A stretch of DNA of 43,357 nt from a bacterium (GTDB taxonomy: Bacteria; Patescibacteriota; Minisyncoccia; UBA6257; WO2-44-18): the NCBI GenBank assembly GCA_023244815.1, contig JAHFLQ010000006.1:1-43357 (forward strand). The letters run 5' to 3'. The notes beneath the pieces were generated by a model that saw nothing but the letters and a program-made list of their open reading frames with translations, searched no databases and was not told the DNA's origin. A program made the translations under genes and the position numbers. This document shows, piece after piece, positions 25,272-29,074 of the stretch; position 1 is the stretch's first letter, and each line of letters opens with the position of its first letter.

Positions 25272-25299
25272 ATTATACAAAATTCTTAATAAAAGTCAA
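25272..25299 (-). promoter_or_regulatory. Promoter of the 289-residue gene
   Basis: Minus-strand TTGACT (25299-25294), 16 bases, consensus TATAAT (25277-25272). It lies over the last codons and stop of rnhB. The leader then contains a six-pair hairpin, GCCGGA...TCCGGC (25231-25248). Confidence 0.75.
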
Positions 25300-25902
25300 G
25301 CGGTGCAATTCGCAGATGCCGTGCTTTTTGATCGCCTTAATATGAAGCCGTGTACCGTAGCCTTTGTGCTGGGCAAAGCCGTAGATGGGATAGTCGCAGT
25401 GATTTCGGGAAATAATCCGGTCGCGGTTCACTTTGGCAACGATGGAGGCCAGCTTGATGGCGTTATATTTTTCGTCGCCGCGGACTACCGTCCGGCAACT
25501 AGTAACTGGTAAATGGTAATTAGCAATTTTGTTTAGGTACAAACCGCCATCTAAGAAGACGTTTATTTTGGATTTTCTATTTACTATTTGCCATTTACTA
25601 TTTACTAAGAGCTTTTTCAAAGCTCTGGTGGCCGCCAAATTCGCCGCCTGGGAAATATTGATACGATCTATTGTTTTCGGATAAACGTTGGCGCGGGCGT
25701 AAAAAATCTGCGGATGTTTTTTAGCCGCTTCGAAAAACCTCTCTCTTTGTTTAGCAGAAAGTTTTTTTGAATCTCTCAATTTAACTTTCAGCTTTAAACT
25801 TTTAAGTTTAAACTTGGGCGGCAGCGCAAGCGCCGCCACCGTCACCGGCCCGGCCAAACAACCCCTGCCCACTTCGTCAATACCTATTATAAAACGAGTC
25901 AT
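25273..25902 (-). CDS. rnhB: Ribonuclease HII with repeat insertions
   Basis: Removes RNA from RNA-DNA hybrids, including single ribonucleotides. The 209-residue protein has GIDEVGRG (catalytic D9, E10), LRDSKKLS, VFLDGG, GDEKYNAIKLASIVAKVNRD and HKGYGT. Three lysine-, serine- or valine-rich stretches look inserted between conserved blocks: KFKLKSLKLKVK (about 30-41), NSKWQIVNRKSKI (about 100-112) and NYHLPVTSCRTV (about 126-138). They are encoded by AT-rich repetitive DNA such as TTTACTATTTGCCATTTACT. All catalytic motifs remain. The ATG at 25902 is preceded by no clear SD. The upstream 316 bases form the structured region described separately. Confidence 0.93.
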   Translation of the reverse strand: MTRFIIGIDEVGRGCLAGPVTVAALALPPKFKLKSLKLKVKLRDSKKLSAKQRERFFEAAKKHPQIFYARANVYPKTIDRINISQAANLAATRALKKLLVNSKWQIVNRKSKINVFLDGGLYLNKIANYHLPVTSCRTVVRGDEKYNAIKLASIVAKVNRDRIISRNHCDYPIYGFAQHKGYGTRLHIKAIKKHGICELHRLTFIKNFV

Positions 25903-26218
25903 ATGCTATATTGGTAATAGTATATCGCACATTGAAAGGGTGGTAGCCACCTCCTTTCACATAAGCTCCCGGACGCGATGCGAGCTATTTTCTCTGTAGA
26001 GCTAGGATTGAGGGCGCAGGCATAGACATCTATGCCAAGCCCGAAAACAACGCTATGCAGGAAAATAGCCGCATCCTTTCGGGTTGTTACGAAAATGTCC
26101 GCTCGCTTTGCCACCCCATCTTGGCAGTAGAGTCTACAGCTCAAGACAGAAGCGTCTTCGCGAATCGGAACATTTTCGCTAACAACGCGCCAGAGATTTA
26201 TGTGAAAGGAGGTGGCTT
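25903..26218 (+). promoter_or_regulatory. Structured leader region of the first protease gene (candidate cis-regulatory RNA)
   Basis: No convincing gene lies here. An extended -10, TGCTATATT (25904-25912), could start a plus transcript near 25919. AGCCACCTCCTTTCACATAA (25945-25964) is exactly complementary to 26198-26217, which contains the protease SD AAAGGAGGTGG. Inside are two long helices, 25977-25992 with 26061-26075 and 26083-26106 with 26160-26186, each with smaller hairpins (GGCATAGA...TCTATGCC at 26019-26036; TGCCA...TGGCA; AAGAC...GTCTT). Just upstream, GAAAGGGTGG (25934-25943) can pair with CCACC..CTTTC of the anti-SD arm instead, freeing the SD. This is the layout of a translational switch. 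An invertible element is an alternative reading. Confidence 0.6.
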
Positions 26219-27022
26219 ATGCGTAGAAATCTGATGTCGCTGCCCAGGATAATTTCCCTTTTCGGCTTAGCGCTCTTGTTTATTCTGATAATCCACTCAT
26301 GTATAAACTCTCCGCCCCGCTATCAATTGCCCGCAGGGCCGACGATTGAAAAAGCAGTCCTGCAAATCCCGGCCGCTCTGCCGCCTGGCCAAAAAACTCC
26401 CCAGCAAATTTATAAAGAAGCGCGTTATCTCGCAGAAATCCATGTGATCGGAAAACGCAATGACTCCGACGAGGAGGTCAGTGGAATCGGCTCCGGATTC
26501 CTGATTAAGTTTAACAACAAATATCTGGTGCTGACTGCCGCTCACGTTATCAGGGATTCGCGGTTCACCGTCAAAGAAATTACTGTTTACCTGAAGGGCA
26601 AGCCGGACGGTTACTCCGCCGAAGTGGACAAAGTAAGCGCCGACAATCTCGATTGTGCCACTTTAAAATTCGGGGATCCGAATTTTAAATTTACCGACAA
26701 TCTTGCCATGCTTCATCTGCAAAAAGACTTTGAGGTCGGCGATGATGTTTACTCGCTAGGCTCTCCTATGGGGATCGGCTACGCATTTGGCAGGGGCATC
26801 CTTATGAATCTGGATTTCGGCCAGCGCAAAATACCCGGCCTTGATTGGAGATCGGTAATCGTCCACAACGCCACCATTGCCCCGGGCAGCTCCGGCGGGC
26901 CGCTGGTGGACCAGTATGGCCGCGTTATCGGCATGAATGTCGCCTTGCATCCGACTTATCAGAACTATCAACTGGCGACCTTTATCACCGACATTCTCGA
27001 TTGGTTGGCTACGCAGTATTAA
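26219..27022 (+). CDS. Trypsin-fold serine protease, probable lipoprotein
   Basis: A 267-residue S1/HtrA-type protease. A hydrophobic signal segment (residues 11-27) ends at IIHSC (C28), a near-lipobox, so it is probably lipid-anchored outside the membrane. The catalytic triad is visible: H109 in LTAAHVI, D145 in NLDCATLKF, S225 in APGSSGGPLVD. There is no PDZ domain. The start ATG at 26219 directly follows the SD AAAGGAGGTGG, which can be sequestered by the long-range helix of the leader. It is the first of three successive plus-strand protease genes, each with its own terminator. Substrate unknown; envelope protein quality control is a reasonable guess. Confidence 0.88.
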   Translation: MRRNLMSLPRIISLFGLALLFILIIHSCINSPPRYQLPAGPTIEKAVLQIPAALPPGQKTPQQIYKEARYLAEIHVIGKRNDSDEEVSGIGSGFLIKFNNKYLVLTAAHVIRDSRFTVKEITVYLKGKPDGYSAEVDKVSADNLDCATLKFGDPNFKFTDNLAMLHLQKDFEVGDDVYSLGSPMGIGYAFGRGILMNLDFGQRKIPGLDWRSVIVHNATIAPGSSGGPLVDQYGRVIGMNVALHPTYQNYQLATFITDILDWLATQY

Positions 27023-27031
27023 AACAAACTC

Positions 27032-27067
27032 AAAAGCCCCCCAAGGTAAATCGGGGGCTTTTAAAAT
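27032..27067 (+). terminator. Terminator of the first protease gene
   Basis: AAAAGCCCCC (27032-27041) pairs with GGGGGCTTTT (27053-27062). Confidence 0.85.
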
Positions 27068-27078
27068 TGTGGCTCCTG

Positions 27079-27106
27079 TTGCATTGGTTTTTATATCTGT
27101 TAAAGT
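27079..27106 (+). promoter_or_regulatory. Promoter of the second protease gene
   Basis: TTGCAT (27079-27084) and TAAAGT (27101-27106) are separated by 16 bases, about 30 bases upstream of the gene. Confidence 0.5.
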
Positions 27107-27137
27107 TTTATCTAGGACTTTTAAAGGAAGGTGATGT

Positions 27138-28238
27138 ATGAGGCGGTGCCTGCTGGCGGTGAATTTGCTGGTTTTGCTGACATCAGTCGGCTGTTTCGGC
27201 CTTTTTGCGCCGGATCGCAACAGCCTAGTCGTTGACAATACTGCTCCAGGATCAGAGTTTAAGAGCGACCCCGATTTCGGCAAAACCGAAGTCGGCGCTG
27301 ATAGCGCAACCGCTAAAGCAATAAGCGGTGCGCAAATCTACGCTGATTTTGATTCCGTCCACATTGAAATGATCGTCGGTAAAGCCTACGAATCTTGTAA
27401 GGGCGCCGGCTTTCCGGTGTCAGTAGGCGGCCAGCCTTATGTTTTGACTGCCGGACATAATTGCTTCTCGATGGCCAAATACCGTAAAGTATTCGTCTAC
27501 TTCAAAAATAGTTGCCAATCCCCAGAAGAGGCGGAATTCGCGGTTGGCGACCCAAACATTGATTGGGCGCTGCTCCGATTTAAAAAACCCGGGTTTGCCT
27601 ACCAGGGCAAGTATCCGAAGCTCGGTTTGGCCAATGGGCTGGTTATCGGGGAAGCGGTGTTTTCCATCGGCTCTTCCAGCGGCACGGAACACTCCTTCAA
27701 GACGGGCATTGTTGAGCAGATTATTTGCGGCCGAAACAATGGACAAACACAGCCGCGTTTAATTATCCACTCCTGTCAGCTCGAGCCGGGCAATTCTGGC
27801 GGCCCCCTCCTGAACAGCCGCGGAGAAGTAGTCGGCATCAATGTGATGGCGAACATGTCGAAAGGCATTGCCGTTCCCATTGATGATGTCATTGCTTCAA
27901 TCCGGCGGGTTAAGAAAGGCGGGAAGTTCGAACACCCCTACCTCGATTTTCTCCTAATGGAGACGAAATGGCTCAATGAAGCGGATTACACGGAACGCCT
28001 GAAAGTGCCTACGCCAGGCCAGAGCGGACTTGTCGTGTACGTCTGCGACTCCAGTTCTTCTATCGCTAAAGCCGGACTGAAACTCGGCGATCTGGTTCTG
28101 GAATGCGCCGGCGTGGAAGCCAAAGACAGCGCAGAAGTATACCGGCACCTGATGCTCGACTTTGATCCGGGCGATGAAGTTGAGTTCAAGGTGCTGCGCG
28201 GCAAAGAAAAGCTGACTTTTAAAATTCAGCTTGAGTGA
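27138..28238 (+). CDS. HtrA/DegP-like serine protease with PDZ domain, probable lipoprotein
   Basis: A 366-residue protein. The signal segment ends TSVGC (C19), a likely lipobox. The protease domain has H107 in LTAGHNCFS, D142 in PNIDWALLRF and S220 in LEPGNSGGPLLN. A C-terminal PDZ domain follows (about residues 290-366: GLVVYVCDSSSSIAKAGLKL, GDLVLECAG), giving the protease-PDZ arrangement of DegS/HtrA. Additional cysteines in the protease domain (C87, C109, C126, C197, C213) might form disulfides outside the cell. The ATG at 27138 has an AAAGGAAGGTGATGT SD region. Second of three protease paralogues; possibly regulated by C-terminal peptides through the PDZ domain, as in the family. Confidence 0.9.
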   Translation: MRRCLLAVNLLVLLTSVGCFGLFAPDRNSLVVDNTAPGSEFKSDPDFGKTEVGADSATAKAISGAQIYADFDSVHIEMIVGKAYESCKGAGFPVSVGGQPYVLTAGHNCFSMAKYRKVFVYFKNSCQSPEEAEFAVGDPNIDWALLRFKKPGFAYQGKYPKLGLANGLVIGEAVFSIGSSSGTEHSFKTGIVEQIICGRNNGQTQPRLIIHSCQLEPGNSGGPLLNSRGEVVGINVMANMSKGIAVPIDDVIASIRRVKKGGKFEHPYLDFLLMETKWLNEADYTERLKVPTPGQSGLVVYVCDSSSSIAKAGLKLGDLVLECAGVEAKDSAEVYRHLMLDFDPGDEVEFKVLRGKEKLTFKIQLE

Positions 28239-28247
28239 AAAAAATCA

Positions 28248-28275
28248 AAATTCCTCCATCTGGAGGAATTTTTTT
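28248..28275 (+). terminator. Terminator of the second protease gene
   Basis: AAATTCCTCCA (28248-28258) pairs with TGGAGGAATTT (28261-28271), followed by TTTT. Confidence 0.88.
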
Positions 28276-28345
28276 AGGCAGGGCTTTTTTGTTATACTGT
28301 AAGCGTTCTTTAAAAATCGAGTGCGTCCTGGAAGGGAGGCAACTT

Positions 28346-29074
28346 GTGCGTCACGCACTGATTCTTCTGCTCGTGTTACTGGCGGCCTGCGCACCGGGGC
28401 AGTTCAAAATTCAACCGCCGACGGAAACAGACCTCAAAGAATTGCCGGTTTACAAAAACGCGGATTACCTGGCAGTGGTGGAGGGTCGTGGTTTCAAACT
28501 CTCCGGTTTTCTGATCGAACAGGATGGAAAGTATTTTGTGATAACAGCTGGTCATATAATTGACGGTCTGGGGCCACGCACTACTTGCCGAACCAGATTC
28601 AAAAACGACCCGGAAAAGTTTTTCTCGGTAGAGCTAGTTGGCTACGACAGAGCTTACGACACCGCTGTACTGGCCGTTAAAGAGCAAAGCTTTCAATTTG
28701 GCGGTCGTCTTGCTGTCTTGGGAGATTCCGACACAACAACAGTCGGTGATCTCGTTTATAGCCTCGGCAATCCCCGTACCTTGCTTTGGTACATTAGTGA
28801 AGGATTGATAATGTCGGTATCGGCGAGGGATATGAATGCCGAACCAAGTCTTCTCCGGAAAAAAATTGCTTGCCGAATGATTGAGCATTCTGCCATGGCC
28901 GGATACGGAAGCTCCGGCGGCCCTGTCTTAAACTCGCGCGGTGAAGTAATCGCGATGAATGTGGAGATAGTGCCCATACATAAAGACGCGGGCATCTCGG
29001 AAGATGTTCTCGCTATTCCGATAAACGAGATTAAGAAACGGCTAAGCGACTTAATGGCCGGTTATAAAAATTAA
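28346..29074 (+). CDS. Trypsin-fold serine protease, lipoprotein
   Basis: A 242-residue protein. The GTG at 28346 is taken as start because AAGGGAGG precedes it and it opens directly with a lipoprotein signal, MRHALILLLVLLAACAPG, with lipobox LAAC (C15). The longer frame starting at 28235 overlaps the previous gene and its terminator. Triad: H70 in ITAGHII, D105 in YDTAVLAV, S190 in GYGSSGGPVLN. No PDZ domain. A possible -10 TATACT (28293-28298) lies upstream without a clear -35. Third member of the tandem protease set. The three share the fold but are well diverged, so the set is old or of mixed origin. Confidence 0.88.
   Translation: MRHALILLLVLLAACAPGQFKIQPPTETDLKELPVYKNADYLAVVEGRGFKLSGFLIEQDGKYFVITAGHIIDGLGPRTTCRTRFKNDPEKFFSVELVGYDRAYDTAVLAVKEQSFQFGGRLAVLGDSDTTTVGDLVYSLGNPRTLLWYISEGLIMSVSARDMNAEPSLLRKKIACRMIEHSAMAGYGSSGGPVLNSRGEVIAMNVEIVPIHKDAGISEDVLAIPINEIKKRLSDLMAGYKN

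Follow-up and report, generated by a model that had tools for sequence, protein, structure and literature searches.

The segment from 25945 to 26217 of the window (the whole stretch of 43,357 nucleotides analysed here) is, with a probability of about 0.9, a copy of a non-coding, MITE-like palindromic mobile element inserted between the SD of a protease gene and its start codon. It is a member of a previously unlisted, dispersed family of non-coding palindromes found in many CPR bacteria. Identical copies lie at two loci and an orthologous site is empty, which shows repetition and mobility on an evolutionary scale; the two-armed palindrome is conserved, with compensatory changes; and the copies with SD-type ends are placed at start codons. 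The features of the locus are the following.

25273-25902, minus strand: RNase HII gene (rnhB), divergent neighbour (Pfam RNase_HII, 1.8e-34)
25934-25943, plus strand: original SD of the protease gene, GAAAGGGTGG, now severed from the start codon; aligns with the SD of the element-free site L156
25945-26217, no strand: the whole mobile element, 273 bp, non-coding, with a 100% identical second copy and diverged relatives
25945-25964, no strand: left TIR, AGCCACCTCCTTTCACATAA, anti-SD-like, perfect complement of 26198-26217; common to copies in several genomes
25977-26075, no strand: arm 1, a long imperfect hairpin with an apical GUAGAnUCUAC-type sub-hairpin; identified from the fold and from compensatory changes among 18 relatives
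26083-26186, no strand: arm 2, a second long imperfect hairpin, related in sequence to arm 1 reversed; identified from the fold and from compensatory changes
26198-26217, no strand: right TIR, TTATGTGAAAGGAGGTGGCT, which supplies the new SD GGAGG (26208-26212), 6 nt before the ATG
26219-27022, plus strand: lipoprotein-like protease of the trypsin family, first of three in tandem (Pfam Trypsin_2, 2.5e-22)

Orthologues and paralogues of the 26219 protease occur in all 8 genomes of the family. The three tandem Trypsin_2 genes of the window (26219-29074) are all of the lipoprotein type and one has a PDZ domain; similar tandem clusters exist in relatives, with three genes in G002 and six in G005.

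Structure of the leader and its SD

The preliminary description had read the segment as a structured leader of no class that it recognised, in which a long-range helix masks the SD and a local hairpin frees it. Its structural part stands. The perfect 20-base inverted repeat (25945-25964 and 26198-26217, with a 233-nt spacer) is as described, both inner helices (25977-25992/26061-26075 and 26083-26106/26160-26186) are recovered by folding, and the order does exceed that of a random spacer: the plus strand folds at -144 kcal/mol against a mean of -91 for shuffled sequences (z = -11, none of 100 shuffles equal). The minus strand, which was not visible to that first reading, folds equally well (-150, z = -10). 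Palindromic DNA, rather than a one-strand RNA, has this property of equal folding.

The GGAGG at 26208-26212 sits 6 nt 5' of the ATG at 26219. Folding confirms the proposed local pairing between 25934-25943 and the anti-SD arm (duplex, -14.3 kcal/mol; hairpin alone, -9.6 kcal/mol), but the long-range duplex of the repeat arms is far stronger, at -35.2. An SD enclosed in a long-range helix and contested by a local hairpin is physically possible, as had been claimed. In the full leader, as transcribed from a start ahead of the element, pairing of the SD is nearly complete (unpaired probability ~0). With the left arm absent, the hexamer tested, 26207-26212, is open at its last four bases (unpaired probability 0.84-0.99) and still paired at its first two. 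That the structure was not recognised as a known class was borne out by an Rfam search at gathering and permissive thresholds (E up to 10), which gave no match. Open reading frames inside the element (for example 25899-26144, minus strand) are kept only in the identical copy and were dismissed as due to chance.

Insertion site and copies of the element

The part of the preliminary description that does not hold is that this structure evolved as the leader of the 26219 gene. In L156, from another genus of the same family, the same divergent rnhB/protease pair has a short, element-free leader that ends in GTGAAAGGAGGCGGTTGATG, whereas the window reads GAAAGGGTGGT (also given as TTGAAAGGGTGGT), then the element, then TATG; as the empty site comes from another genus, the insertion border is exact to a few bases only. 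The genome to which the window belongs (G000, 598 kb in 15 contigs) contains a second copy at C10:12569-12851, identical at 283 of 283 bases (the element, C10:12569-12841, and 10 bp of left flank), and this copy precedes an unrelated, amidinotransferase-like gene. It too has an SD at the place that matches 25934-25943, and splits it from the start of that gene; in the G007 relative the corresponding sequence, TTGAAGGAGGCGAATATG, is unbroken. These two empty sites identify 25934-25943 as the original SD of the protease gene, not the SD mimic that it had been called on first reading, and the SD beside the ATG as that of the element.

The right end, GAAAGGAGGTGG, re-creates a near-ideal SD at 6 nt from the ATG, so that the gene may survive the insertion. 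In a transcript that contains both ends this SD is hidden, and translation of the gene therefore probably continues from RNAs begun or processed within the element. The two competing pairings, ON and OFF, are thus a by-product of an SD-like end having landed next to an SD, whether or not they now regulate the gene.

Other copies are more diverged. That at C9:69477-69747 of G000 has a related interior and perfect ends that are quite different (GAGCCATATCCCAATACTAA), and the genome holds 6 elements with the apical hairpin TGTAGACTCTACT or a one-base variant of it. DNA matches are found in 6 of the 8 genomes of the family, and Harrisonbacteria, Yanofskybacteria and one Parcubacteria group genome are among the named carriers. 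A covariance model of arm 2 matches 54 of the 244 order genomes (E <= 0.001) and 35 of 384 genomes sampled across the class (E <= 1e-6), many of them in several copies. No copies were found in the viral and plasmid collections searched. Pattern matches in L063 (Spirochaetaceae, the one examined), L087 and L088 were without element ends and were rejected. A literature search, incomplete in its coverage, found no described family of this kind in Patescibacteria.

Anatomy and placement of the family

The elements, mostly 263-289 bp long, share a common plan in which lineage-specific TIRs of ~20 bp close two arms of ~100 nt. The order is TIR, [A/G]CTCYC..CGCGATG, arm 1, a CATCC-CGAAG-GGTTG linker, arm 2, CAACGCG.., TIR; the arm 2 model (R1) also matches arm 1, on the opposite strand. 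When 18 aligned elements were analysed with RNAalifold, 58 of the 74 predicted pairs displayed at least one double compensatory change. The fold is kept in elements that do not lie in leaders, namely in terminator loops (L043, L052, L055) and in the variable loop of broken tRNA genes (L133, L146). A strand-specific RNA is expected to favour G.U over A.C mismatches. On pairs predicted from both strands, 36 elements gave 53 G.U and 43 A.C mismatches (p = 0.36), compared with 17 and 7 in a small tRNA control. This near-equality is supportive only, and points to a constraint at the DNA level, not on a one-strand RNA; the test is weak, a larger set folded on the plus strand alone having given a G.U excess that was traced to the bias of that fold.

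Some elements depart from the common plan. L050 and L054, both in G005, are otherwise similar and have the same ends, with the interior of arm 2 inverted between them. In L029 and L037 of the same genome both arms are swapped for other palindromes (GACATCCGATATCC-type and GATTCCCGAAATCC-type) while the ends and the general shape are kept, as if the arms were exchangeable modules. In L101, L102, L134, L138, L141 and L143, elements with GGAACCCATTTGCTAAATAG-type ends adjoin a recurring flank, TTTTGARGTT..GGRGCTA, for which an Rfam search gave no match, and a second TIR-like sequence; this arrangement recurs in several genomes.

Relatives of the element occur in either orientation, and their sites include terminators, positions ahead of other genes and the interior of broken tRNA genes. 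Both ends could be resolved in 10 elements of the SD class, and every one of these has a start codon at a distance of 0-3 nt, 6 in one orientation relative to it and 4 in the other; 6.6% of random positions in the same loci are that near a start codon (p = 1.6e-12). Several elements of other TIR classes are likewise adjacent to start codons, stop codons or terminator hairpins, and the class with GGGGGC ends in G004 is in or beside terminators. Likeness between target and TIR may be what steers the SD-type class to SDs, and folded DNA may be what the mobilising enzyme recognises. No constant target-site duplication was found among 33 elements, the mean border repeat being 2.8 nt versus 2.4 nt by chance (2.3 s.d.), values compatible with a short one.

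The tRNA cases comprise three loci, three tRNA species and three families, and are cargo-like. In L133 (G065) and L146 (G078), at about positions 1250-1750 of each locus, a broken outer tRNA gene holds the palindromic element in its variable loop, and its anticodon loop is interrupted by an inverted-repeat stem enclosing an intact tRNA with the same anticodon (Pro CGG and Glu CTC, respectively); joining the tRNA flanks gives a variable loop of normal length. In L118 (G001:C2, locus positions 1286-1645) the broken gene around the element is a tRNA-Gln, and arm 1 of the element contains an intact tRNA-Gln (CTG) bordered by a short inverted repeat.

Alternative readings and the mover

A translational riboswitch or thermosensor evolved for the protease gene, in which the local hairpin frees the SD (ON), the long helix hides it (OFF) and the arms act as the sensor, would share with known riboswitches and RNA thermometers an SD within a helix and a competing hairpin. 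The energetics given above allow it, the SD being hidden in the full leader and mostly open without the left arm. As an account of the origin of the segment it is nevertheless already contradicted: the same 273 bp stand before an unrelated gene and so are not tied to a gene family, the orthologous leader of L156 does without them, the same structure occurs at non-leader places in both orientations, and without a target that is itself an SD there would be no ON hairpin. There is also no Rfam match, although a novel ligand class would escape Rfam. I consider this origin highly improbable. Hardly credible at all is the phase-variable segment, inverting as a promoter or SD switch, that the preliminary description had held in reserve. 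The unit is indeed flanked by inverted repeats, and the L050/L054 pair indicates that inversions do occur in the element family, but the repeats are the ends of the element and, because the two ends are identical, a flipped unit would present the gene with the same SD; moreover, the interior contains no promoter-like site beyond chance and the 8 family genomes contain no serine recombinase. A further possibility is that the element makes a functional RNA, such as a guide RNA for a recombinase, and that mobility is secondary. Conservation of a two-armed structure of ~270 nt over a class of bacteria would agree with this, and the bridge-RNA elements IS110/IS1111, whose targets are often structured, likewise have a structured, RNA-sized non-coding piece with two looped arms. 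However, none of the 244 genomes of the order encodes an IS110 (DEDD) enzyme, the type known to use bridge RNAs, and the element, unlike IS110/IS1111, has long TIRs and no open reading frame. Its two strands fold equally, and G.U shows no excess over A.C on the pairs common to both, all of which makes a functional RNA an improbable primary product.

Bacterial MITEs and palindromic interspersed repeats are reviewed in PMC10969869, and BOX, RUP and SPRITE are treated in PMC3049150. Like MITEs, Correia, ERIC, BOX, RUP and SPRITE, the present element is short, non-coding, multi-copy and intergenic, has inverted ends and a stable fold, and may affect nearby expression; with 273 bp, 20-bp TIRs, no coding capacity, 6 copies in G000 and more in relatives, it has the basic traits of a MITE. 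Unlike them, it has a two-armed fold conserved over a class with extensive compensatory change, lineage-variable TIRs, no constant target duplication, and an end class found only between SD and start codon, where it rebuilds the SD. It may be an ordinary MITE of a since-lost DDE transposase, found at start codons only because such landings survive, and TIRs, size, copy number and intergenic location do fit MITEs (PMC10969869). This is a possible but doubtful reading in view of the missing constant duplication, the diverse TIRs on one conserved fold and the confinement of SD-class copies to start codons though neutral intergenic sites abound. Variation of the TIRs by lineage also counts against the mobile-element reading as such, since elements mobilised by a single sequence-specific transposase would not usually differ in this way. 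Derivation from an IS200/IS605-type (Y1 HUH) single-strand transposon, or from a REPIN/RAYT-like repeat, would account for the folded ends and imperfect palindromes, for the lack of an evident target duplication and for insertion directly 3' of an end-like sequence, as single-strand transposition predicts. Long perfect TIRs are atypical of these systems, however, and the Y1 transposase is missing from four of the six family carriers (G000, the window's own genome, G001, G002 and G004), whereas it is present in G003 and G006, which carry no element or one weak match; this derivation is therefore rather unlikely.

The distribution of IS200/IS605 (Y1), IS110 and serine recombinases does not fit that of the carriers, and all were rejected as movers of the mobile element. 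No autonomous element that shares its ends and encodes a transposase was seen among the loci retrieved. My best guess, and a tentative one, is an enzyme that acts on a folded strand and chooses its target partly by likeness to the element ends; a lost DDE transposase is nearly as likely. It is also possible, if less likely than not, that the family is a new class of CPR element that moves as folded DNA, finds SDs, terminator loops and tRNA loops by their resemblance to its own changeable ends, and repairs what it breaks, with a new SD for genes or an intact tRNA of the same anticodon for tRNA genes.

Copies of the element look exactly like riboswitches or structured leaders and are thus a trap for annotation. 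CPR genomes are small and seemingly poor in selfish DNA, yet this non-coding element, in which a conserved two-armed fold is combined with no known mobilising enzyme, is distributed over many families within one class. Its SD-like ends illustrate how a translation start can take up a mobile element without being destroyed.
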